Assembly: GCA_001898965.1 (NCBI GenBank)
Contig: MKVW01000006.1
Coordinates: 50,882 to 114,881, forward strand
Direction: 5' to 3'
Length of the DNA: 64,000 bases
Source: Rhizobiales bacterium 62-17
GTDB lineage: Bacteria > Pseudomonadota > Alphaproteobacteria > Rhizobiales > Beijerinckiaceae
The first letter of the stretch is position 1. Each line of letters begins with the position of its first letter. Under the pieces are notes generated by a model. That model was not told the DNA's origin and did not search any database. It was given only the letters and a program-made list of their open reading frames with translations. This document shows positions 52,258 through 64,000 of this stretch, one piece after another. A program made the position numbers and the translations under genes.

Positions 52258-53030
52258 GTCGCTGCGCCCGGAACGACGAAGCGGCTGTCGCGCGGTGCCG
52301 TACGTAAAAGGTCGAGTGCTGCCGAATTCAAAACGATCGTCTTGCGGCCGATCTTGCTGTCGGGAAGGAGCAGGAAGCCTCGGTCGAGGTCTACGTGCGA
52401 CCATTCCAGTGTCATAATCTCATTCTTGCGGGCGCCCGTAAAATCAACAGTCGAATTGCCAATATGGCTGGGGCGGGAAGCAGAGTCCGTTGGTTCTCAG
52501 GCTTGGCACGATGCTTACTCGGTGTGTCGACGGGCGGCTTCCACGGAATGCCGGTGGTTTCGGCTAAGCGATGTGCTTCGCCGATCCTGCCGAGCTCTTC
52601 GGCGTTAAGAAATCGCTCGCGTGCCTGCTCACGATATTTCCCGATATCGCGTGCTGGGTTGCAGAGCCTCGTGATGAAGCCACGTTTGCCGGCGAAGCTG
52701 TACATGCTCTTCAGGACCACAAGGATCTGGTCGGCTTGGTGGGGTGTGCTGCGCATCTTCAGATGAAGTTCGGATATCTTTTGTGGGGTCACGTGTTCCG
52801 CGCTCAGTGATCCAAGCGTCGGGACGACGTGCTTTTCTAGAAGAGATCGATAGCCGCGATACGTACCAGGTTTTCTCTTCGCTTCGACGTGCTGGGTCAG
52901 AAACAGTTCGACCAGAGCGCGGACGGTCGCTGCAGCTTTCTGTTTCTCGCGCTCGATGACCGGGTCTTCACCTAGAGCCGCCTGGCTGAGGAGGGCTCGG
53001 GCGTTGTTACGAGCGTCTTCGTCTGCTGGA
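52258..53030 (-). pseudogene. Decayed tyrosine-recombinase integrase
   Basis: Minus-strand frames match a P4-type integrase in two pieces. The first runs ARNNARALLSQAALGEDP, core-binding domain LVELFLTQHVEAKRKPGTYRGYRS, then GIPWKPPVDTPSKHRAKPEN. The second continues TGARKNEIMTLEWSHVDLDRG with LLLPDSKIGRKTIVLNS. The join shows a one-base deletion in a T run near 52440-52443. The N-terminal DUF4102 part is mostly missing, and homology stops after RFVVPGA near 52258, so the catalytic His-x-x-Arg and Tyr are lost. It is inactive and marks a former mobile element. Confidence 0.8.
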
Positions 53031-53127
53031 GCCGCGTCTCGATGGCGTTGTCGCGGTAACGAGCGCCATGAAGCGCTCGGCCAATAGCCATCTGTCGTAC
53101 TCTTCACTCTTGGCGAAGCTAACGTCA

Positions 53128-54942
53128 TTAGATGCTTGTCAGCGAAGCCAACTGTGCGCGGAGCAGGCCACCGAACTTGCCTTCCCACGGGCGGTTCTGA
53201 TGCCGCGAAAGCTGGACTGCCCGGAGTTCACGCAGAATCGAAGGCCGAATGATGGCATGGGCTTCGAGCGCATGCGTGTCGAGGCTCCGGCGGACGGCAG
53301 ATGCCGGCATGGCCGTAGCCCATCCGCCCGATTTCACCAGACGAATGGCGGCAGCCATCGAGTCGAGTTCCAGTTTGGGCACCAATGGCAGACCGGCATC
53401 GGCGAACTTCCGATCGAGGAGGGCGCGCAAGCCGTGGCGCTGTGATGGCAGGACAAGATTGAGCTTACCGATATCGGCCATCTTGATGGGGCCTGGCGGA
53501 CAGTCGGATTGTCCGGCGGCGGTTAGAATCGAGAGCGGCTCGACAAACAGCGCTGTTTCCTTGAGCCAGGTGCGCGTGTGCAGGTCTTCGACGATGGCGA
53601 TGTCGACGATGTTCTCAGCCAGCCAGTCCAGCAGGACGCTGCTGTGCGATTCAACGATCTTGAGTTCGACGTTTGCGAAATCTTTCTGCCACTGTTGAAT
53701 CGTCGCGGTCATGGCGCGGATGAGAAGACTGTCTTCGTCCAGTCCCGGTAGAACGCCCACGCGCAAGGTCGTGCGGGTGCGTATCGGCTTGGTTGTGGGA
53801 TTGCGTCCTTCCTGGCGTAGCGCCTCAAGGACTGGAGCATAGACTTCGCGAGCCCGGTGCGCCAAAGCTGTCGGATGAATGCCTTGCGCCGTGCGGTCGA
53901 AAAGTGCTCCACCCAGGCTGTGTTCCAGCGCCCGGATCTGCATGCTGACGGCCGGCTGAACGACGTTCAGCTTCGCTGCGACACGCGTGATCGATCCTTC
54001 TTCGAAGGCACGCAGAAAGTAACGTAGCTGACGCATTTCGGGGAGGGCCGGCGCGTCAAGCTCCTGTTCCGGCGTTCGCCTGGCTCGGATGATCTGAGCT
54101 TTCAGGGCGGTGCAAAAGGCGCGCTGCTCCGCTTCCTGGAGATCGCAGGCCATTGTGATCCGAAGCGGCGGCAGAGCCTTCGTGACGTCGCGCACGAATA
54201 GTCGGGGGTGCCGTAGGTTCCGTGGATTGATCGCCAAACGCGGCGCAAGGATACGTCCGCTGTTTTGTACCAGCAGGTCGGCGATCAGTTCGTCCGCATC
54301 GCCGGTCTGGTGATGCAGGACATGTTCGCCGCCGATTGGCCAGGTCTTTAAGGCTTCGCGGATGCGGGGCGGCAGGACAGGAAGATTGATGTCGCCTGTC
54401 AGAGGCTCGGCGCGTGGTTTCACTCGGCGGTCCTGCATCGGCCCCGCTATGCCGATCAGGAGCCATTGGTCGGAAATCGCCGTCCCATTCGCCGCGAGGT
54501 CGATGTCATGATGGATCTGCACTAGGCCGCCATGCGGCGCGGATCCCATTTCCGAGGGAAAATAGGTGATCTTGATCTGCGGCGCTTTATTCGCGAGCGC
54601 CCGGCCGGCTTGTCGGCAGGCGCGCGTCAGCAGGCTGGCCGCCGAATAAGGCAATTCCACAAACAGCGGTTTAAAGGGAGCCGTCTCTGCAGCGCGAATG
54701 TAGCCGGTGCCATGCGAGGCGGCGTCCAGCAGTGGCGATATCCGCCGATAAAGACGCTGCGCCGATTTCGTCGGACGAAGTCCTACGGGCGTGCGTCCGA
54801 AGAGGACATCGTTCAGTTCAGTCTCGAGCAAACGAATTTGCGTGCTCAAAGTCGGCTGCGTGACCTGGCAGGCCACGGCCGCAGCACTCATGCTACGCTG
54901 TTCAACCGCCGCGATGAAATACTGAAGTTGGCGAAAATCCAT
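53128..54942 (-). CDS. Double LysR-type transcriptional regulator (two regulators in one chain)
   Basis: A 604-residue protein, twice the usual LysR length of about 300. Two winged HTH domains are seen: DFRQLQYFIAAVEQRSMSAAA with VTQPTLSTQIRLLETEL at the N-terminus, and MRQLRYFLRAFEEGSITRVA with VVQPAVSMQIRALEHSL near residue 303. The second is followed by a normal LysR effector domain (LRVGVLPGLDED to the end); the first half has a weaker, diverged effector-like region. No stop or frameshift separates the halves. It is divergent from the Liv/catabolic operon and is its likely regulator. The start is ATG 54942, with TTG 54951 possible. Confidence 0.88.
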   Translation of the reverse strand: MDFRQLQYFIAAVEQRSMSAAAVACQVTQPTLSTQIRLLETELNDVLFGRTPVGLRPTKSAQRLYRRISPLLDAASHGTGYIRAAETAPFKPLFVELPYSAASLLTRACRQAGRALANKAPQIKITYFPSEMGSAPHGGLVQIHHDIDLAANGTAISDQWLLIGIAGPMQDRRVKPRAEPLTGDINLPVLPPRIREALKTWPIGGEHVLHHQTGDADELIADLLVQNSGRILAPRLAINPRNLRHPRLFVRDVTKALPPLRITMACDLQEAEQRAFCTALKAQIIRARRTPEQELDAPALPEMRQLRYFLRAFEEGSITRVAAKLNVVQPAVSMQIRALEHSLGGALFDRTAQGIHPTALAHRAREVYAPVLEALRQEGRNPTTKPIRTRTTLRVGVLPGLDEDSLLIRAMTATIQQWQKDFANVELKIVESHSSVLLDWLAENIVDIAIVEDLHTRTWLKETALFVEPLSILTAAGQSDCPPGPIKMADIGKLNLVLPSQRHGLRALLDRKFADAGLPLVPKLELDSMAAAIRLVKSGGWATAMPASAVRRSLDTHALEAHAIIRPSILRELRAVQLSRHQNRPWEGKFGGLLRAQLASLTSI

Positions 54943-55124: not shown

Positions 55125-56297
55125 ATGAAAGCTCATTTTCCGTGTGTTTCCGCTTCCACTTTGATGGGCGCAGCGGTTCTGGCAATCGGTGCCCTGGCGA
55201 TTTCGCCAGCGGTCGCCCAAGTCAAAATCGGTTTTCAGGCGCCGTTGACCGGCCCTGCTGCCACCGATGGTGTTTCGGCTAAAGTCGCTTCGGAGTTGGC
55301 GATCGAGCGTATCAATGCCAAGGGCGGCATCCTTGGCCAGAAAGCCGAACTCGTCACTTACGACGACCAGGCCAAAACCGAAGATGCGGTGTTCACGGCC
55401 AATAAGCTTGTCGGCCAGGATGGTGTGAAGTTCGCGGTTTCGGGCAGCTACTCTGCTTCAGGCCGCGCCGCCGCGCCGATCTTCCAGAACGCCAAAGTGC
55501 CCTTCATCTCGGCCTATGGCGTGCATCCAGACATCACCCGCACGGGTAACTATGCCTTCCGGACGGTTCACCTGGGCCAGCCGCAGGGCCGCGCCGCCGC
55601 CAAATTCATTGGCGACAATCTCGGCAAGAAGCGCATTTCCGTCATCTCGATGGACAATGACTACGGTCAGGCGACGCTCGAAGGGTTCAAGAGCGCGGTC
55701 GACCAGTTCGGCGTGAAGATCCTCGGCGAGTATTCCTATCCGCTGCGCGACCGGCAGTTCGGTTCGATCGTCGCCAGCGTCAAGCGCGACAATCCGGAAG
55801 CGGTCTATATCACCGGCTACTTCTTCACCGGCGGCCCGCTGGTGACGCAGCTGCGTGCCGCTGGCATCACCGTTCCGATCATCGGTTCGCAGGCTTTTGA
55901 TGCGCAGAAGCTCATCGAAATTGCCGGCTCTGCGGTCGAGGGCGTCTATATCGTCGGCGGCCTCAACCGCGATCCTTCGAACGAGGAACTCAAGACCTAT
56001 CTGGCCGATTTCCAGAAGCGCGCCGGCTATCCTGGCGAGAATGTCGGTGCGACGGTCTATTCGGCAATCGTTCTGATGGCCGATGCGATCAACCGGGCGG
56101 GGACGCTCGATCCGGCCAAGGTGCGCGATGCTTTGGCGAATACGAAGGACTTCCCGCATCTTGCCGGCAAACTGGTCAGCTTCAATCCGCTGCGCGAAAT
56201 CAACATGCCGATGAACGTCAACATCGTGAAGGATGGGCAGTTCCGCCACTTCGCCTGGATCGACGATCTGAAGCTGCTCGCGCCGCCGACCGAATAA
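55125..56297 (+). CDS. Liv-type ABC transporter periplasmic binding protein
   Basis: A 390-residue protein. The signal peptide ends near AISPAVAQ, and the type I binding fold follows (VKIGFQAPLTGPAATDGVSAKVASELAIERINAKGGILGQK, then ISVISMDNDYGQATLEGFKSA and GATVYSAIVLMADAI). Family ligands are branched-chain amino acids, amides and aromatic acids. With the following catabolic genes the ligand is more likely an imidazole- or hydantoin-type compound, which is an inference. AAGAAGG lies upstream of the ATG. It is the first gene of the operon. Confidence 0.92.
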   Translation: MKAHFPCVSASTLMGAAVLAIGALAISPAVAQVKIGFQAPLTGPAATDGVSAKVASELAIERINAKGGILGQKAELVTYDDQAKTEDAVFTANKLVGQDGVKFAVSGSYSASGRAAAPIFQNAKVPFISAYGVHPDITRTGNYAFRTVHLGQPQGRAAAKFIGDNLGKKRISVISMDNDYGQATLEGFKSAVDQFGVKILGEYSYPLRDRQFGSIVASVKRDNPEAVYITGYFFTGGPLVTQLRAAGITVPIIGSQAFDAQKLIEIAGSAVEGVYIVGGLNRDPSNEELKTYLADFQKRAGYPGENVGATVYSAIVLMADAINRAGTLDPAKVRDALANTKDFPHLAGKLVSFNPLREINMPMNVNIVKDGQFRHFAWIDDLKLLAPPTE

Positions 56298-56313
56298 CGC
56301 GACCTGACCTTAA

Positions 56314-56343
56314 GGCGCATCGGGGTGAGAGTCTCGATGCGCC
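56314..56343 (+). promoter_or_regulatory. Intercistronic hairpin between binding-protein and permease genes
   Basis: GGCGCATCG (56314-56322) pairs perfectly with CGATGCGCC (56335-56343) across a 12-base loop, 16 bases after the binding-protein stop and 21 before the permease start. No T tract follows. Such hairpins commonly protect the upstream message and allow more binding protein than permease to be made. Confidence 0.6.
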
Positions 56344-56364
56344 ACCTCACATCTGGATCACATC

Positions 56365-57231
56365 GTGTATTACGTCGACCTCTTTTTGAATGGTCTGATT
56401 TTCGGCAGCATGTATGCGCTGATGGCCATCGGACTGACCTTGGTCTACGGCCTGCTGCGAATTCTGCATATTTCGCATGCCGCCGTTTACGCGTTAGGCG
56501 CGTTCATCACCGTCATCGTCGCCAATGCGACGGGAAGCATTGCGCTCGGCATGCTGGTTGCCGTCGTCGTCTCGGCGATTTTCGGCATGGGCGTCTATCG
56601 CGTGCTCTATCAGCCCATGCTGCGCTATCCACCCTATGTGGCGATGATCGCCTCGATCGGTCTGCTCATCTTCATGGAAGATGCGTTCCGCATCATTTTC
56701 GGCGAACAGGGCCTAACCTTTACCCGCAATCCCTATCCGACGCAGATCCACAATCTGTTCGGCATCACGATCAACACGGTGCAGATTGCCATGATCGTTC
56801 TGTCGACGATTTGCCTGGTGGCTTTGGCGTTGTTCACGACGCGCACCCGCATGGGCATTGCCTGGCGGGCCACGGTGTCCAACCCGACGATCGCGACCAG
56901 CTTCGGCGTCGATGCCATCAAGGTGCGTTATCTGAATTTCATGATCGGCTCGGCGCTTGCCGCTTTGGCCGGCGGGCTGATCGCGCTGCTCAACAATTTT
57001 GTCGAGCCGACCATGGGCTTCGTCGTCAGCTACAAGGCGCTTGCCATCATCGTTCTGGGTGGCCTCGGCAGCATGCGCGGCACGCTGATCGCCGCGCTCG
57101 CGCTGGGGCTGGTCGAATCCTTCGGCACGATCTGGGTTGGTTCATACCTCGATCGTGATGCTCTGGCCTTCTTGTTCCTTATTATTGTCCTGATGGTGCG
57201 TCCGCAGGGCCTGACCGGGGCGCACGCATGA
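56365..57231 (+). CDS. Liv-type ABC transporter permease (LivH-like)
   Basis: A 288-residue membrane protein with about eight helices. FLNGLIFGSMYALMAIGLTLVYGLLRILHISHAAVYALGAF is the classic LivH N-terminus, and LGGLGSMRGTLIAALALGLVE is the cytoplasmic coupling region that contacts the ATPase. It starts with GTG 56365. Its stop overlaps the next permease start by 4 bases (ATGA). Confidence 0.94.
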   Translation: MYYVDLFLNGLIFGSMYALMAIGLTLVYGLLRILHISHAAVYALGAFITVIVANATGSIALGMLVAVVVSAIFGMGVYRVLYQPMLRYPPYVAMIASIGLLIFMEDAFRIIFGEQGLTFTRNPYPTQIHNLFGITINTVQIAMIVLSTICLVALALFTTRTRMGIAWRATVSNPTIATSFGVDAIKVRYLNFMIGSALAALAGGLIALLNNFVEPTMGFVVSYKALAIIVLGGLGSMRGTLIAALALGLVESFGTIWVGSYLDRDALAFLFLIIVLMVRPQGLTGAHA

Positions 57232-58076
57232 CCCTCTATGCTTACAGTCTTCTGTCCATTCTCGGCATCAATATCATGTTGGCGACGAGTCTCAACTTGA
57301 TCAGCGGCTTCTGCGGTCAGTTCAGTCTCGGGCACGGTGCTTTCTATGGCGCCGGTGCCTATGCGGCGGCGCTTTGCGCGGTCGCCGGCTATCCGGTGCC
57401 GGTGGCTTTGCTGGTCGGCGCGCTGGTCGGCGGCGCCCTTGGCTTTGTCGTCGGCTTTGCTTCGGTGCGGTTGCGCGAGGATTTCCTGGTGGTCACCACC
57501 ATCGGTGTCAGCTTCCTGTTCGTCGGCTTCGTCCGCAAGCAGAAGTGGCTCGGCGCCGAAATGGGGATCAGCAAAATTCCCGCGAGTGGGCTCGGCCCCG
57601 AGGGCAATGCGATCATGATCCTCCTCTTCGCCGCCGCGACGATTGCGCTTTGCCTTTATCTCAACCGCAGCTGGCTTGGTTTCGCTTTCCGTGCGGTGGG
57701 TGACGACGAGCAGGCAGCGCGCACCATCGCTATTCCGGTCTCCACCTACAAATTGCTGGCCTTCACCATCGGCACGGCGGTCGCTGGATTGGCGGGTGGC
57801 CTCTACACCTATTTCACCCAGTTCATCGTGCCCGATTCCTTCACCTTCATTCTGTCGGTGACATTGATGGCTATGGTGGTCATCGGCGGCCTTGGCTCGA
57901 CCTGGGGTGTGGTGATCGCGGCGATCATCCTGACGCTGCTGCCGGAGGCATTCCGCTTCATCAACGACTACCGTCTGCTGATTTACGGCGGCGTGCTGAT
58001 GCTCGTCATGCGTTTTGCGCCTGGCGGCCTTGCTGGCATCGCGACATCGGTCACACGGAGGCTGCGCAAGGCATGA
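57228..58076 (+). CDS. Liv-type ABC transporter permease (LivM-like)
   Basis: A 282-residue membrane protein. SLNLISGFCGQFSLGHGAFYGAGAYAAAL is the LivM hallmark, FRAVGDDEQAARTIAIPVSTYKLLAFTIG is the conserved cytoplasmic loop, and IGGLGSTWGVVIAAIILTLLPE follows. It pairs with the preceding LivH-like protein to form the channel. Start and stop overlap the neighbours by 4 bases, showing tight coupling within the operon. Confidence 0.94.
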   Translation: MTLYAYSLLSILGINIMLATSLNLISGFCGQFSLGHGAFYGAGAYAAALCAVAGYPVPVALLVGALVGGALGFVVGFASVRLREDFLVVTTIGVSFLFVGFVRKQKWLGAEMGISKIPASGLGPEGNAIMILLFAAATIALCLYLNRSWLGFAFRAVGDDEQAARTIAIPVSTYKLLAFTIGTAVAGLAGGLYTYFTQFIVPDSFTFILSVTLMAMVVIGGLGSTWGVVIAAIILTLLPEAFRFINDYRLLIYGGVLMLVMRFAPGGLAGIATSVTRRLRKA

Positions 58077-58834
58077 CCACGCTCCACGTCGAATCCGTCT
58101 CCATCCGCTTCGGTGGTGTTCAGGCGCTGACGGACGTCAATTTCTCGGTCCAGAAGGGCGAGTTTGTCGGCCTGATCGGTCCCAACGGGGCTGGCAAGAC
58201 GACTCTGCTCAAAATCATCGCCGGCATTCTGACACCGGACACCGGTCGCGTCATGCTGGAGGGTGAGGACGTAACGCGCCTGCCCACCGCCAAGCGTGTG
58301 CGCAAAGGACTGGCGATCACCCACCAGATCGTGCGGCCGTTTCGCTCCATGACCACGTTGGACAACACGGCATTGGCCGCCGGCTACAAGATCACGTCCA
58401 ATCCGCTGACGGCAGCCTTTCATTGGCGGCGCTCGCAGCAATCGGCGCGCGCCGCCGAGATGCTGGCCAAGGTCGGCCTTGCCGGCCTCGAAGATCGTGA
58501 TGTGAGTGCTTTGCCCTTAGGCAATCTGAAACGCCTGGAAGTGGCGCGCGCCCTGGCGCTCGATCCGTCCATCATCATCCTCGACGAACCTCTGGCAGGG
58601 CTCAATCATCGCGAAGCGGAAAGGCAGGCCGATACTCTTGCCGCACTCAACGCGGAAGGACTGACCATTGTTCTTATCGAGCACAACCTGCGCGAACTTG
58701 TCCGCGTCTCCAAACGCCTGCTGGTCCTCGATGGCGGTAAAATGATTGCCGATGGCGAACCGGAACACGTGATGTCTGATCCGGCTGTGCGGGAAGCCTA
58801 TGTGGGAAAGGCCGACGATCATGCTGCGGCTTGA
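58073..58834 (+). CDS. Liv-type ABC transporter ATPase (LivG-like)
   Basis: A 253-residue ATPase. VSIRFGGVQALTDVNFSV, Walker A GPNGAGKTTLLK, the Liv-specific RPFRSMTTLDN loop, the signature region LPLGNLKRLEVARALALDPS and Walker B IIILDEPLAGLNHREAE are visible. The signature is altered: LPLGNLKR replaces the usual LSGGxxQR/LPYGxQRR form, as is often seen in LivG. The C-terminal extension typical of LivG (DPAVREAYVG) is present. It overlaps the next gene by 14 bases. Confidence 0.94.
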   Translation: MTTLHVESVSIRFGGVQALTDVNFSVQKGEFVGLIGPNGAGKTTLLKIIAGILTPDTGRVMLEGEDVTRLPTAKRVRKGLAITHQIVRPFRSMTTLDNTALAAGYKITSNPLTAAFHWRRSQQSARAAEMLAKVGLAGLEDRDVSALPLGNLKRLEVARALALDPSIIILDEPLAGLNHREAERQADTLAALNAEGLTIVLIEHNLRELVRVSKRLLVLDGGKMIADGEPEHVMSDPAVREAYVGKADDHAAA

Positions 58835-59531
58835 AAATCTGAGCTGCGGGTACGGACCCGTCGTCGCGGTCGAAGACGTGAGCTTCGACCTGCCGGAACG
58901 CTCATCCCTGGCGCTGCTCGGGCCGAACGGTGCGGGCAAGACTTCGACCATCATGGCGATCATGGGACACACCACGATTCATGGTGGACGCATTCTGTTT
59001 AACGATCAGGACATCACGCGGCTGCCGCCGGTCAAGCGCGTCGATCTGGGTATTGCCCTGGTGCCTGAAGGACGGCGCTTATTTACCGATCTGACGGTTG
59101 AGGAAAATCTCACCGTCGGCGGCTACCGCTTGTCCGTGCAACGCGACAAGATCAATCGGCAGCGCGTTTACGACTTGTTTCCGCGCCTGTCCGATCGTCG
59201 CAAGCAAACCGCCGGCTCCATGTCGGGTGGCGAACAGCAGATGCTGGCGATGGGCCGCGCTTTAATGACCGAGCCGAAGCTTTTGCTGATTGACGAACTT
59301 TCGCTCGGCCTGATGCCGAAAATGGTCGATTTGTGTTTCGATGCGCTGGCAGCCTTGAAACAGGACGGCGTGACGATTTTGCTGGTCGAGCAGAACACGA
59401 CCCGCGCTCTCGATTTTGCCGAGAATGTCTGCGTGATGACGTCGGGTTCGCTGGCGTTTTCTGGAACTTCCAAACAGGCCAAGGCCGATGAAAACCTCTT
59501 CGACGTTTTCATCAGCGCGGCCCATGAGTGA
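58821..59531 (+). CDS. Liv-type ABC transporter ATPase (LivF-like)
   Basis: A 236-residue ATPase. LENLSCGYGPVVAVEDVSFDL, Walker A GPNGAGKTSTIMAIMG, the LivF-typical LVPEGRRLFTDLTVEENL, the signature MSGGEQQMLAMGRALM and Walker B LLLIDELSLGLMPKMV are all present; the last shows Leu for the usual Pro after the catalytic Glu. GGGAAAGG precedes ATG 58821. It completes the transporter and overlaps the following amidohydrolase region. Confidence 0.93.
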   Translation: MLRLENLSCGYGPVVAVEDVSFDLPERSSLALLGPNGAGKTSTIMAIMGHTTIHGGRILFNDQDITRLPPVKRVDLGIALVPEGRRLFTDLTVEENLTVGGYRLSVQRDKINRQRVYDLFPRLSDRRKQTAGSMSGGEQQMLAMGRALMTEPKLLLIDELSLGLMPKMVDLCFDALAALKQDGVTILLVEQNTTRALDFAENVCVMTSGSLAFSGTSKQAKADENLFDVFISAAHE

Positions 59532-59539
59532 GCAGTGCC

Positions 59540-60919
59540 ATGAGTGATTTCGATCTTGTCGTTACGGGCCGCGTGGTTCTCACCGATCACGTGATTGACC
59601 ATGGCTATGTGGCGGTTCGCTCCGGTGTCGTCGAGCGGGTCGGCTCTGGGACGCCGCCGCAGGCTCGCGAGCGCTTCGATTTCGGCGACGCCTATGTGCT
59701 GCCGGGCGCCATCGACTCGCAGGTTCACTCCCGGTCGCAGAAGAACCAGGAGGATTTCATCTGGTCGACACGCTCGGCGGCCGCCGGCGGCGTCACCACC
59801 ATCGTTGACATGCCTTACGATGAAGGGTTCCTGGTCTCCTCGGGCGCAAATGTTCGTCGTAAGGCCGAAGAGGCAGGTGTGCAGGCGCGGGTCGATTTCG
59901 CCCTTTACGCCACGATCGACCCCGAGGAAGGCGCAAAGCGGATCGATGAAATGGTCGCTGCCGGTGCGGCCTCGTTCAAATTCTCGACCTTCGGCACTGA
60001 TCCGAAACGGTTCCCGCGCATCCCGCCGCAAACCTTGCACGCCTGTTTCAAGGCGATCAGTCGCCATGGGCTGATCGCCGGCGTTCACAACGAGAACGAC
60101 GAAATGGTGCGTGCCGCCATCGGGGCGGTGGAAGCCTCGGGGATTCGCGACTATCGCGCGCATGCCCTGTCGCGCCCACCGGCGACGGAAACCCTCGCCA
60201 TGGCGGAAGTCTATGAACTCGCGGCCGATGCTGGTTGCTCCGGCCATATCGTTCATTGTTCGCTCGGACGTGGCTACGATCTATGCGCCGGCTATCGTGC
60301 GCAAGGGTTCGATCATACCATCGAAGCTTGCATTCATTACCTGACGCTCGATGAAGAAAACGATGTGGCGCGGCTCGGCGGCAAGGCGAAGATCAATCCG
60401 CCGCTTCGTCCGCGCCGCGAAGTGGAAGCGCTCTGGCGTCATCTCGCTGCCGGCAATGTGACGGTGGTGTCCACCGATCACGTCAGCTGGTCGGAGGATC
60501 GCAAGACCAACCCAGACATGCTGAAGAACGCATCCGGCGTGCCGAGCCTCGAAGTTCTCTATGCACTGCTGCTCAAGGGGCTGACCGAACGGCGCCTCGA
60601 CGTCACCTGGGCAGCTCGCTTGCTGGCCGCCAATCCAGCACGGCTGTTCCGCATCGGTCACCGCAAGGGCGCGCTCGAAGCGGGCCGCGATGCCGATATC
60701 ACTGTGATGGCCCATCGCCCGGGCCGCTACGATGCGGCGGCGAGTGGTCACAACTTCGTCGGCTGGAGCCCTTATCAAGGCATCGAACTGCCCTATCGCC
60801 CAGTGGCGACCTTCCTGCGTGGCAAAGCGATTTTCGATGGCACCAATGTGACGGCGGAGCCGGGAAGCGGTGCCTTCATCCATCCGGTTCTGGCGAACCA
60901 GGTGGAGGCAGCGGCTTGA
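59540..60919 (+). CDS. Cyclic amidohydrolase (hydantoinase/dihydroorotase superfamily)
   Basis: A 459-residue TIM-barrel metalloenzyme of the dihydroorotase, allantoinase and hydantoinase group. The barrel-start motif reads PGAIDSQVHSRSQ, with Gln where most members have the first His, a variation also known in some dihydroorotases. SFKFSTFG supplies the lysine region, HNENDEM and HIVHCSLGRG give metal-binding His, and STDHVSWSED gives the catalytic Asp region. In this operon it probably opens a hydantoin ring, possibly hydantoin-5-propionate, to an N-carbamoyl amino acid. GTG 59528 is an alternative start. Confidence 0.87.
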   Translation: MSDFDLVVTGRVVLTDHVIDHGYVAVRSGVVERVGSGTPPQARERFDFGDAYVLPGAIDSQVHSRSQKNQEDFIWSTRSAAAGGVTTIVDMPYDEGFLVSSGANVRRKAEEAGVQARVDFALYATIDPEEGAKRIDEMVAAGAASFKFSTFGTDPKRFPRIPPQTLHACFKAISRHGLIAGVHNENDEMVRAAIGAVEASGIRDYRAHALSRPPATETLAMAEVYELAADAGCSGHIVHCSLGRGYDLCAGYRAQGFDHTIEACIHYLTLDEENDVARLGGKAKINPPLRPRREVEALWRHLAAGNVTVVSTDHVSWSEDRKTNPDMLKNASGVPSLEVLYALLLKGLTERRLDVTWAARLLAANPARLFRIGHRKGALEAGRDADITVMAHRPGRYDAAASGHNFVGWSPYQGIELPYRPVATFLRGKAIFDGTNVTAEPGSGAFIHPVLANQVEAAA

Positions 60920-62178
60920 TGGGTACATCTCGGTTGCCGGTCGATCAAGACCGTATGTGGAACGATGTGATGGCGCTCGCCGCCATCACCGATCCAGATC
61001 GGCCCTATACGCGCCGCTCTTTCTCGCAACGTTTCCTGGAAGGGCGCGATTGGTTGCGGCGCCGTTTCGAGGACGCCGGATTGAGTGTGCGTCTCGATCA
61101 GGCCGCCAATTTGATCGGCCGTCTGGAAGGCACGGAGGCGGGTGCCCCGCCGATCATGCTGGGATCGCATTCCGATACCGTGCCGTCGGGCGGACGGTTT
61201 GATGGCATCGCCGGCGTCATCGTCGCGCTCGAAATCGTCCGTGCCATGAAGGATGCCGGTTACCGCTCGCGCCATCCCATCGAAGTGGTCGATTTCCTCG
61301 CCGAAGAGCCGAGTGAATATGGCATCTCCTGCGTCGGTAGCCGCGCCATGGCCGGTGCGCTCGATGACAAAATGCTCGCCTATACCAATGCAGCGGGCGA
61401 AAAGCTGGCTGACGCGATCCGCCGCGTTGGTGGCAATCCGGAGAGGCTGGCTGAGGCCCGCCGATCCGATATCGCCGGCTTTCTGGAGCTGCATATCGAA
61501 CAGGGTCTTGTGCTGCAGAACAACAAGATTGACCTGGGGCTCGTGACGGCGATTGTCGGCATCACCCGGATTGAAGTGATCTACAAGGGCGAAGCAGACC
61601 ATGCGGGCGCAACGCCGATGGACTATCGGCATGACGCCAGTCTGGCAGCGGCGCAACTCATTCTCTTCGTCAATCGCGCAGCTAGGGAATTGGCCGAGCA
61701 GGGAAAAGGCTATTTCGTCGCTACCACGGGGATCATTGACATTCATCCCAATGCCTCCAACGTCGTGCCGGGGCAGGCACGCCTGGTGTTTGATATCCGC
61801 GCCGAGGATTATGCCCTGGTCGCAGATTTCAAGGCGGCGTTGGAGCGTGAAAGTCGTGCGATCGCGCAGCGTGAGAGAGTTGAGCTGGCACGTTATGCCA
61901 TTCTCTCTGATACTCAGCCGACGGCCTGCGATGCGCATCTGCGCGATCTTCTGGGACGTGGTGCCGAGCGCCATGGCTTTTCGGCGATGACTTTGGCCTC
62001 GGGCGCTGGGCACGACGCGGCCTTTGTCGCGAAGATCGCGCCAAGTGCTATGCTGTTCATTCCTTGCCGCGATGGCAAAAGCCACGCGCCGGAGGAGTGG
62101 ACCGAGCCGGAACAGATCGCGGCCGGAGCTACCGCTATTTTTGAAGCCGTGCGGCTTCTCGACGGACACAACAGCTAA
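60919..62178 (+). CDS. M20-family N-carbamoyl-amino-acid hydrolase (HyuC/AllC-like)
   Basis: A 419-residue dinuclear zinc hydrolase. Metal-binding motifs are GSHSDTVPSGGRFDGIAG, FLAEEPSEYGISCVGSRAMAG, LELHIEQG and GAGHDAAFVA. The IPCRDGKSHAPEEW block with the last His is diagnostic of the carbamoylase/allantoate amidohydrolase subgroup. The dimerisation domain (about 215-330) is present. Following a hydantoinase-type gene, it would release the amino acid, CO2 and ammonia; N-carbamoyl-glutamate is the proposed substrate. The ATG overlaps the previous stop (TGATG). Confidence 0.92.
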   Translation: MGTSRLPVDQDRMWNDVMALAAITDPDRPYTRRSFSQRFLEGRDWLRRRFEDAGLSVRLDQAANLIGRLEGTEAGAPPIMLGSHSDTVPSGGRFDGIAGVIVALEIVRAMKDAGYRSRHPIEVVDFLAEEPSEYGISCVGSRAMAGALDDKMLAYTNAAGEKLADAIRRVGGNPERLAEARRSDIAGFLELHIEQGLVLQNNKIDLGLVTAIVGITRIEVIYKGEADHAGATPMDYRHDASLAAAQLILFVNRAARELAEQGKGYFVATTGIIDIHPNASNVVPGQARLVFDIRAEDYALVADFKAALERESRAIAQRERVELARYAILSDTQPTACDAHLRDLLGRGAERHGFSAMTLASGAGHDAAFVAKIAPSAMLFIPCRDGKSHAPEEWTEPEQIAAGATAIFEAVRLLDGHNS

Positions 62179-62189
62179 CGGAGCCGGAT

Positions 62190-63278
62190 ATGGGACGCAT
62201 TCTGACGGCGCGCGATGTAGATTGCGCAGGCAAGGGCGGTGCGGTGTTTGCGGCGGGCGGTGGCGGCTGGGCCGATCATGGCCGTATGCTTGGCACGGCC
62301 GCGGTCAATGCCGGCCAGCCAGAATTGGTGTCCATGGACGAAGTGCCCGATGATGCCTGGATCGCCACCGCCGCGGCCATTGGCGCACCGGCCAGCACCA
62401 CCGAATGGCAGATGCTCGGCGTCGATTATGTCAAAGCCGTGCAGCTCGTACAGAAGGAACTCGGCGCACCGATCCACGGCCTGATCATCGGTCAGAACGG
62501 CAAGTCCAGCACGATGAACGCCTGGCTTCCATCAGCCATTCTCGGCACCAAGGTGATCGATGCGGTCGGCGATATCCGCGCCCATCCCACAGGCGACATG
62601 GGATCGATCGGCCTTGCCAATTCGCCGATCCCAATGATTCAGTCGGCGGTGGGCGGCAATCGCAGCAAGAATGCCTATATCGAGCTGGTGGTACGCGGCG
62701 CGACGGCCAAGATTTCACCGATCCTGCGCACGGCCTCGGATATGTCGGGTGGGTTCATCGCCTCCTGCCGCAATCCGGTGCCAGCCTCCTATGTGAAGAA
62801 ACATGCAGCGCTCGGCGGCATTTCCATCGCTTTGGCGTTGGGCGAAGCCATTTTGAAGGCTGAACCTAAGGGCGGGACGGCTGTCGTCGATGCCATCTGT
62901 AAGGAAACCAAGGGCGAGATTATCGGCCAGGGCAAGGTGATGAAAAAGGCGGTGACCTACACCAATGAAGCCTTCGACATTGGCACGATCACGATCAACG
63001 AGGGCGCCAAGGCGATTACTTTGCACGTGATGAATGAGTATATGGCGGTGGAAGATGCGCAAGGCACGCGCCTCGCCACGTTCCCAGACGTCATCACCAC
63101 CCTGGACAAGAATGGCGTTCCGGCCAGCGTCGGTGAGATCAGGGAAGGTGACGAACTTCTGGTGCTGCGCATCGCCAAGAACGTCATTCCCCTGTCCTCT
63201 AGCGTCACCGATCCGTCTGTCTATCCGATCGTCGAAAAGGCGCTCGGTCTCAATCTGACCGACTATGCTCTGAGCTGA
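62190..63278 (+). CDS. DUF917 family protein (S-methyl-thiohydantoin desulfurase-like)
   Basis: A 362-residue protein matching the DUF917 family (GGAVFAAGGGGWADHGRML, GLIIGQNGKSSTMNAWLPS, DAVGDIRAHPTGDMGSIGL, SDMSGGFIASCRNPVP). As I recall, a founding biochemical activity in this family is removal of the sulfur group from S-methyl thiohydantoin propionate in ergothioneine breakdown; other members sit in hydantoin operons. The N-terminal half is the likely catalytic part and the C-terminal 100 residues form a beta domain. It lies 11 bases after the carbamoylase and 10 before the urocanase-like gene. Confidence 0.85.
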   Translation: MGRILTARDVDCAGKGGAVFAAGGGGWADHGRMLGTAAVNAGQPELVSMDEVPDDAWIATAAAIGAPASTTEWQMLGVDYVKAVQLVQKELGAPIHGLIIGQNGKSSTMNAWLPSAILGTKVIDAVGDIRAHPTGDMGSIGLANSPIPMIQSAVGGNRSKNAYIELVVRGATAKISPILRTASDMSGGFIASCRNPVPASYVKKHAALGGISIALALGEAILKAEPKGGTAVVDAICKETKGEIIGQGKVMKKAVTYTNEAFDIGTITINEGAKAITLHVMNEYMAVEDAQGTRLATFPDVITTLDKNGVPASVGEIREGDELLVLRIAKNVIPLSSSVTDPSVYPIVEKALGLNLTDYALS

Positions 63279-63288
63279 GGTTTTAGAG

Positions 63289-64000
63289 ATGGCGCAGCGT
63301 GTATTTTCCGTAACGTCCGGCGACCAACTGCGATGCAAGGGCTGGCGCCAGGAAGCGCTATTGCGCCTCTTGGAGAACGTGCTGGCCGTCGGCGAGGATC
63401 CGAACAATCTCGTCGTCTATGCCGCGCTCGGCCGTGCCGCGCGCGACTGGCCTTCGCACGACAAGATCGTCGAGACATTAAAGACGATCGAGGATGGTGA
63501 AACCCTGCTCGTGCAATCGGGCAAGCCGATCGGTGTCATCAAGACCCACGCCAAGGCGCCGGTCATCATCATGGCCAATTGCAACATGGTTGGCCAATGG
63601 GCCAAGGCCGAGAATTTCTACGAACTGGCGAAGAAAAACCTAATCTGCTGGGGCGGTCTCACCGCCGGTGACTGGCAATATATCGGCTCGCAAGGCGTTA
63701 TTCAGGGTACCTACGAAATCTTTATGCGCATCGCGGCCAAACATTTCGGCGGCGATCTCGCTGGGCGCTTCGTACTCACCGCCGGCATGGGCGGCATGGG
63801 TGGGGCGCAGCCGCTGGCGGGCAAGATGGCTAAGGCGGCGATCCTTTGTGTCGACGTCGACGAATCTCGCATCGACAAGCGCATGACGATTGGTTTTGTC
63901 GATGTCAAAGCGAAGACATTGGATGAAGCGCTGGAGATGATCCGCAAGGCCCAGGCAGAAAAGAGGCCACTGTCCGTTGGTTTGTGCGCCAATGCGGCCG
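63289..64000 (+). CDS. Urocanate hydratase homologue, divergent (3' end outside window)
   Basis: From ATG 63289 there are 237 open codons running off the right edge. The text matches the urocanase N-terminal half: GWRQEALLRLLENV, ETLLVQSGKPIGVIKTH, the NAD-binding TAGMGGMGGAQPLAGKMA and SVGLCANAA. Several normally conserved spots differ: the YGGIGRAARNW block reads YAALGRAARDW and the GQMTAGSW block reads GGLTAGDW. Next to a DUF917 gene this suggests a thiourocanate or S-methyl-thiourocanate hydratase rather than HutU. GAGG lies upstream. No hutH, hutI or hutG gene is in the window. Confidence 0.9.
   Translation, partial: MAQRVFSVTSGDQLRCKGWRQEALLRLLENVLAVGEDPNNLVVYAALGRAARDWPSHDKIVETLKTIEDGETLLVQSGKPIGVIKTHAKAPVIIMANCNMVGQWAKAENFYELAKKNLICWGGLTAGDWQYIGSQGVIQGTYEIFMRIAAKHFGGDLAGRFVLTAGMGGMGGAQPLAGKMAKAAILCVDVDESRIDKRMTIGFVDVKAKTLDEALEMIRKAQAEKRPLSVGLCANAA

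Follow-up and report, generated by a model that had tools for sequence, protein, structure and literature searches.

A predicted thiourocanate operon that carries a UbiD-family gene and no ergothionase in Rhizobiales bacterium 62-17

How does an organism enter thiourocanate catabolism when the enzyme expected at the entrance is missing? The question is raised by an operon at the right edge of a 64,000-nucleotide stretch of Rhizobiales bacterium 62-17 (assembly GCA_001898965.1, contig MKVW01000006.1, positions 50,882 to 114,881), which is referred to as the window. The Ert pathway has been reconstituted as five steps, catalyzed by ergothionase, thiourocanate hydratase, thiohydantoin desulfurase, ErtD, and ErtE. 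The operon encodes the last four together with a Liv transporter and ends with a gene for a UbiD-family decarboxylase. A sequence-only reading of the window had proposed the breakdown of ergothioneine or S-methyl-ergothioneine. The analysis favors a different entry point: the operon probably serves the uptake of an imidazole-2-thione acid and the breakdown of thiourocanate to glutamate, so that its substrates would be thiourocanate-level compounds and not ergothioneine.

Core Enzymes

The Pfam and NCBIfam matches of the operon proteins lie far above chance, and ErtD, ErtE, the desulfurase, and the hydratase all pass the cut-offs of their NCBIfam equivalog models (Table 1). The Liv transporter, hydantoinase, M20 carbamoylase, DUF917 protein, and divergent urocanase named by the sequence-only reading are all present in the list of open reading frames (ORFs), on one strand and in the order given there. 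Each step that it had proposed (thiourocanate hydration, desulfuration, ring opening, and release of glutamate) is matched by an equivalog above its cut-off. Going by the known chemistry of their families, the four enzymes would be enough to take thiourocanate to glutamate.

The urocanase is indeed divergent. It scores 1032 bits on the thiourocanate hydratase model versus 719 bits on HutU, where the general model TIGR01228 is passed as well (cut-off 375). The cysteine of the RICW motif is important in HutU; in the window hydratase the motif reads RIAW. Among 65 hydratases of such loci, this position is occupied by alanine in 62, glycine in two, and serine in one, and it is a cysteine in 30 of 30 HutU sequences. 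Two motifs near RICW also split the hydratases from HutU wherever they were read in the same set. The best solved relative is 7ned, which is titled a urocanate hydratase and which we take to be a thiourocanate hydratase.

Ordinary histidine or hydantoin use had been kept as an alternative, and the hydantoinase and carbamoylase families are general enough to serve it. It is nevertheless very unlikely and is rejected here, because the operon hydratase is the sole urocanase of the genome, lies above the thiourocanate hydratase cut-off, and lacks the HutU cysteine, and because a desulfurase equivalog is part of the same operon. The downstream hut genes with a normal HutU site that would have spoken for such use are accordingly not found. 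The S-methyl branch is rejected too: the models for S-methyl thiourocanate hydratase (761 bits, cut-off 880) and S-methyl thiohydantoin desulfurase (274 bits, cut-off 450) are missed, which therefore points to the plain thiourocanate branch. A second NCBIfam model of ErtD also stays under its cut-off (378 of 650 bits). The thiourocanate core of the earlier proposal thus stands, and its S-methyl version and its start from ergothioneine do not. The sequence thus gives good support to thiourocanate breakdown in this organism but not to a breakdown of ergothioneine.

The Missing Ergothionase

No ergothionase turns up in the genome (5.66 Mb, nine contigs, 99.3% complete), be it in the operon or elsewhere. 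The enzyme had been expected just past the right edge of the window; the next gene there encodes UbiD, and no aromatic lyase is found in the following 5 kb. The sole PF00221 lyase of the genome lies on contig C1 and is a histidine-lyase-like protein of the 4-methylideneimidazole-5-one (MIO) type with an intact Ala-Ser-Gly triad, GSVGASGDLAPL. The label ergothionase type, as used here for lyases at hydratase loci, is based on their lack of the MIO triad and on a profile built from two of them, whose best solved match is the ergothionase 6s7j (374 bits; the next match reaches 259 bits). An NCBIfam scan of two members matched no ergothionase model. At hydratase loci, the triad is absent from 41 of 41 ergothionase-type lyases; the C1 lyase, which retains it, does not fall into this group.

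It is improbable that an unlinked lyase such as the C1 enzyme opens a complete pathway for ergothioneine or 2-thiohistidine, with UbiD as an accessory. This alternative draws on a Lys-Asp pair that closely follows the TGxG loop in ergothionases including 6s7j; 15 canonical HutH rows have Leu-Ala there instead. The pair occurs in the C1 lyase, in the lyases of loci L019 and L069, and in seven lyases read at the UbiD clusters described below; of these, L157-L159 lack the MIO triad, L163 and L164 have Ala-Cys-Gly, and the rest keep the triad. On this motif argument, Lys-Asp lyases may act on ring-modified histidines, either as betaines or as free amino acids. Related MIO lyases are also located near the hydratase and UbiD in L019 and L069, and the L032 and L063 genomes encode such lyases too. 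Several points stand against a role of the C1 lyase. MIO lyases release ammonia, not trimethylamine, and the triad that the C1 enzyme keeps is missing from all ergothionase-type lyases at hydratase loci; ergothionase is described as lacking the MIO cofactor in the cited part of PMC13405746. The C1 gene is situated in a urate-type operon with a fusion of PuuE and 2-oxo-4-hydroxy-4-carboxy-5-ureidoimidazoline decarboxylase, an allantoate amidohydrolase-like gene, a xanthine permease, and UraH (recognized by eye). It has matches in 20 of 397 genomes of the order; their contexts vary, and three lie close to UraH-like genes. Close relatives (56-74% identity) were inspected in 13 further surroundings, none of which showed a hydratase, a desulfurase, or UbiD.

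The host itself probably makes ergothioneine, as suggested by EgtB (570 bits, cut-off 360) and EgtD (398 bits, cut-off 291). Both genes adjoin genes for a betaine-type (proV-like) ATPase of the ATP-binding cassette (ABC) kind and for a protein that fuses permease and binding domains, the fusion being read by eye and without an NCBIfam match. The gene arrangement recalls the ergothioneine importer EgtUV. In a cell equipped with EgtB and EgtD, ergothionase activity would consume an antioxidant of the cell itself; absence of the enzyme would spare this pool. The EgtD family PF10017 is found in nine of 13 UbiD-type and one of three ergothionase-type genomes; the family also matches in E. coli, and confirmation by a specific model is confined to the host genome.

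UbiD in Place of Ergothionase

The window operon is one of several in which a different gene takes the place of the lyase. The best 80 of 370 DUF917 relatives and the window's own give 81 loci (at most 21 kb each, many shorter), which were scored by tblastn at 90 bits or more. The hydratase is present in 68 (67 of the 80, and the host) and absent from 13. An ergothionase-type lyase accompanies it in 41 loci and UbiD in 15; three carry only a family III coenzyme A (CoA)-transferase with two acyl-CoA dehydrogenases, and nine have none of the scored types. The ergothionase-type lyase and UbiD never occur together (0 of 68).

UbiD-bearing loci show several gene orders, and UbiX stands beside UbiD in L012 of Bradyrhizobium sp. 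U87765, L020 of Herbaspirillum autotrophicum, L026, L029, and L059. The CoA-transferase/acyl-CoA dehydrogenase module accompanies UbiD in L022, L026, L029, L030, and L069 (Pfam-checked in L029 and L030); it may lead from thioimidazole propionate to thiourocanate. The same module is seen beside the hydratase without UbiD in L055, L060, and L064, and a gene for a tripartite ATP-independent periplasmic (TRAP) permease joins it in L026, L029, L060, L064, and L069.

Several bacterial lineages show the swap of ergothionase for UbiD. On a tree built from 65 hydratases (the rows of L046, L063, and L086 are too short), the UbiD label needs six changes, at least three of which are forced by well-supported branches, and monophyly of the UbiD-bearing hydratases is rejected (p-AU 2e-6). 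Pandoraea and Herbaspirillum, which have UbiD, are nested in a supported group with ergothionase-type Achromobacter, Caballeronia, and Polaromonas. One row of this tree, L058, comes from a record titled Bacillus subtilis SK6B4; its locus is near-identical to those of Pseudochrobactrum, and the record is probably contaminated or misnamed.

A PF00221 search of 24 genomes, L012 not among them, extends the comparison beyond the loci. In 12 of the 13 UbiD-type genomes, the search shows no lyase of the non-MIO kind; the remaining genome, G750, has fragments, two of which were unread. The genome of L060 has a Lys-Asp non-MIO lyase about 18 kb from the hydratase, beyond the flank taken, that of L089 has one elsewhere, and that of L025 has a non-MIO lyase without Lys-Asp. 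The locus counts therefore understate the lyases outside the UbiD group.

A further arrangement is seen in ten loci of Bosea/Microvirga type (L024, L028, L031, L036, L044, L045, L047, L048, L054, and L056). Their DUF917 proteins are 74-78% identical to the window's and are accompanied by a hydantoinase (44-45%) and a carbamoylase; no thiourocanate hydratase is seen there. An oxidase linked to flavin adenine dinucleotide is found in seven of the ten at the cut-off used.

The UbiD Subfamily

The UbiD protein of the operon has all three UbiD domains and keeps the E(D)-R-E residues. Its nearest solved relatives are 6h6v and 6h6x, the former being the furan-2,5-dicarboxylate decarboxylase HmfF according to the cited part of PMC8988006. 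At HmfF positions 296, 304, and 331, which are His, Arg, and Arg in 6h6v, the operon enzyme has His, Ile, and Arg and thereby departs from HmfF. Arg304 and Arg331 are presumably residues with a role in HmfF. The genome encodes seven UbiD enzymes and a UbiX-like protein (PF02441, 195 residues, named by length and motif).

The 14 hydratase-linked UbiDs of sufficient length were found through DUF917 and give no independent proof of where the subfamily is located. A search of 397 genomes of the same order with UbiD alone yielded nine further relatives with 43-71% identity, along with 14 weaker matches that include a paralogue from the host genome. Their surroundings were scored by tblastn at 80 bits or more over 20 kb. 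All nine relatives have an ErtD-like hydantoinase within 9 kb, which is 61-66% identical to the window's in seven and 43% in two. UbiX is present in seven clusters, a carbamoylase in six, and a lyase within 20 kb in seven; in the genomes of the other two, a lyase lies about 10.5 kb from UbiD. No hydratase or desulfurase occurs in the stretches read (0 of 9). Seven of the weaker matches were read as well: five have UbiX, and none has a hydantoinase, carbamoylase, hydratase, desulfurase, or lyase.

The 14 hydratase-linked UbiDs and the nine from clusters group in a single clade (100/100) that excludes HmfF and the seven weaker homologs; among the outside rows of this tree, L172 sits on a long branch. 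His-Ile-Arg is found in 23 of 23 members and in none of the seven others. Clade, signature, and hydantoinase linkage together therefore place UbiD in this corner of metabolism. The hydantoinase and UbiD do not always travel together, since the hydantoinases of L157-L159 group with those of ergothionase-type Rhizobium, Martelella, and similar bacteria rather than with the other UbiD clusters (ergothionase-type rows thinned in this tree).

That UbiD is a mere passenger, unrelated to the pathway, is hardly credible. UbiD enzymes are common, as the seven in the host genome illustrate. This one, however, begins roughly 17 bp downstream of the hydratase stop codon and recurs in 15 of 68 loci with different gene orders, and its nine close relatives, found without pathway bait, all lie near ErtD-like hydantoinases, in contrast to the seven weaker homologs examined. 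Xanthine-type chemistry with a ureido-imidazole carboxylate was also considered for the UbiD/hydantoinase clusters and was set aside in view of the 61-66% identity of the hydantoinase in seven of nine.

The hydratase-free clusters suggest that the subfamily also works without hydratase and desulfurase and marks a second branch. Two pathways may therefore have been merged in the operon, the hydratase and desulfurase serving thiourocanate, UbiD serving another histidine-derived acid, and both sharing the hydantoinase and carbamoylase. A candidate for the second substrate is an oxidized (hydantoin-ring) histidine or ergothioneine; the cited part of PMC9732360 gives 5-oxo-ergothioneine as a product of oxidation. 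Besides the nine clusters themselves, such a merger is favored by seven of the nine cluster genomes having no desulfurase above cut-off and two having no urocanase, and by G661 and G719, in which the UbiD cluster lies apart from the hydratase/desulfurase genes of the same genome. It is weakened by the operons of the host, L011, L012, and L013, in which no lyase for a second branch is linked, and by the oxidized substrate being conjectural. On balance, the merger is possible but rather unlikely.

Proposed Route

In the favored reading, that of an operon for thiourocanate-level compounds, the Liv transporter would import thiourocanate or a relative. The hydratase would convert thiourocanate to thiohydantoin propionate, and the DUF917 enzyme would exchange sulfur for oxygen, yielding hydantoin-5-propionate. 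ErtD would then open the hydantoin ring, and ErtE would remove the carbamoyl group to release glutamate, the order of the steps following from the named families. With no ergothionase found in the genome, ergothioneine itself would not be the starting compound; the route may instead be fed by thiourocanate released by others or by a related acid. UbiD, standing in for ergothionase, would decarboxylate a related (thio)imidazole acid into the same drain. Two forms of this idea can be differentiated: UbiD feeds thiourocanate to the hydratase, or it belongs to a branch running in parallel, which meets the route at the hydantoinase. UbiD enzymes accept unsaturated and heteroaromatic acids (cited part of PMC8988006), and PA0254 converts a trace (1.3%) of imidazole-4-carboxylate (cited part of PMC7976604), which makes an imidazole acid chemically possible for UbiD. 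That the enzyme in fact removes the carboxyl group of a (thio)imidazole-type acid is a tentative assignment, with the odds against it.

Several observations weigh against this reading. No enzyme of the host's own genome has been shown to make thiourocanate, and at 99.3% completeness a gene may have been missed. As the UbiD clusters without hydratase and desulfurase show, the substrate of UbiD is not necessarily a thio compound, and the enzyme may serve a separate branch. Ergothioneine producers are not always without the lyase: in Achromobacter insuavis (L034), an ergothionase-type lyase occurs together with an EgtD-family gene. Finally, the mutual exclusion of lyase and UbiD is counted regardless of kinship, which also applies to its Fisher value (7e-8, 65 rows), and a tree-based sign test has only three usable pairs and no power.

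A broader proposal, plausible though falling somewhat short of even odds, covers the whole His-Ile-Arg subfamily. It may catalyze an undescribed step, dependent on prenylated flavin mononucleotide, in the breakdown of 2-thio or oxidized imidazole acids related to histidine and ergothioneine, acting alongside Lys-Asp lyases or the CoA-transferase/acyl-CoA dehydrogenase module and draining through ErtD and ErtE. It would have replaced ergothionase several times and would allow makers of ergothioneine to use its debris while their own pool is spared. If this is true, ergothionase is not the sole gateway into thiourocanate catabolism. Surveys based on ergothionase alone would then miss users of ergothioneine products, and surveys based on the downstream enzymes would overcount ergothioneine degraders. 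The field of candidate substrates for the subfamily would be narrow: imidazole, imidazole-2-thione, or hydantoin acids.

Operon Layout

The ten genes from the five-gene Liv transporter to UbiD form a tight operon on the + strand that continues beyond the window edge, with gaps of less than 70 bp and 4-base overlaps between several neighbors (Table 1). The hydratase gene is intact past the edge and encodes 550 residues, 237 of its 550 codons lying within the window. Beyond UbiD, the genes run in the opposite direction. A second Liv set and an MhpA-like hydroxylase found there were rejected as parts of the operon: the Liv set is oriented against it, and L011 and L012 have other genes at this place (the contig of L013 ends). 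A scan for promoters and terminators at the UbiD end found nothing.

The divergently oriented tandem LysR protein is a candidate regulator of the operon, and a homolog stands at the same position in L011, L012, and L013. Long LysR relatives (about 600 residues and more) are seen at other hydratase or UbiD loci (L055, L058, L060, L064, L072, and L162-L164). Near the regulator lies an ORF that resembles a fragment of a tyrosine recombinase, and in another hydratase locus a second DUF917 gene adjoins Liv genes.

Table 1. Positions of the operon genes and of other genes discussed (positions without prefix refer to the window)
Feature	Position	Strand	Evidence
ORF resembling a tyrosine-recombinase fragment	52412-53188	-	by eye only
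Tandem LysR-type regulator, 607 aa	53128..54951	-	Pfam: two HTH_1 stretches and LysR_substrate
LivK-like substrate-binding protein	55125..56297	+	Peripla_BP_6, 219.9 bits
LivH-like permease	56365..57231	+	UrtB/LivH models, under their equivalog cut-offs
LivM-like permease	57228..58076	+	ORF; counterparts 84-87% identical in L011-L013
LivG-like ATPase	58073..58834	+	ORF; counterparts in L011-L013; family by eye
LivF-like ATPase	58800..59531	+	ORF; counterparts in L011-L013; family by eye
Hydantoin-5-propionate amidohydrolase ErtD	59528..60919	+	NF058538, 773 bits (cut-off 600)
N-carbamoyl-L-glutamate amidohydrolase ErtE, M20 family	60916..62178	+	NF058540, 593 bits (cut-off 520)
Thiohydantoin desulfurase (DUF917)	62190..63278	+	NF058529, 613 bits (cut-off 440); Pfam S-Me-THD N and C domains
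Thiourocanate hydratase	63289..64000, continues to L002:13823 (whole gene L002:12171-13823)	+	NF058530, 1032 bits (cut-off 930)
UbiD-family decarboxylase, last operon gene, outside window	L002:13840-15201		PF01977, UbiD_N, UbiD_C (Pfam search on ORF from an upstream start)
MIO-type lyase	L004:1375-3006 (contig C1:458747-460375)		PF00221
UbiX-like protein	L009:6869-7456		PF02441
EgtB-EgtD and adjoining ABC genes	L260:572-5217 (contig C9)		
Second DUF917 gene, 35% identical	L017:1-997		

Relation to Known Systems

The core pathway is already known and named in NCBIfam. In the open-licence literature, no account was found that connects UbiD with thiourocanate or ergothioneine operons or with a hydantoinase branch. 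The operon resembles the Ert pathway in four of its five enzymes, each above its equivalog cut-off and with the hydratase nearest to 7ned; it differs in having UbiD and a Liv transporter in place of an ergothionase, which was found neither in the operon nor in the rest of the genome. S-methyl-ergothioneine catabolism follows the same overall logic with homologous enzymes, but the window hydratase, desulfurase, and the second ErtD model remain under the cut-offs set for it. HmfF is the nearest solved relative of the UbiD enzyme, which keeps E(D)-R-E and the histidine aligned with HmfF 296; in contrast, the subfamily forms a separate, fully supported clade and has isoleucine for Arg304 in 23 of 23 members. 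Lastly, cross-feeding on thiourocanate from Clostridium symbiosum to Bacteroides xylanisolvens in the gut is cited in the part of PMC13405746 referred to above. There, as may be the case here, one organism uses thiourocanate that is released by another, with the difference being that the gut bacteria use it anaerobically for energy metabolism, whereas full breakdown to glutamate is predicted for Rhizobiales bacterium 62-17.

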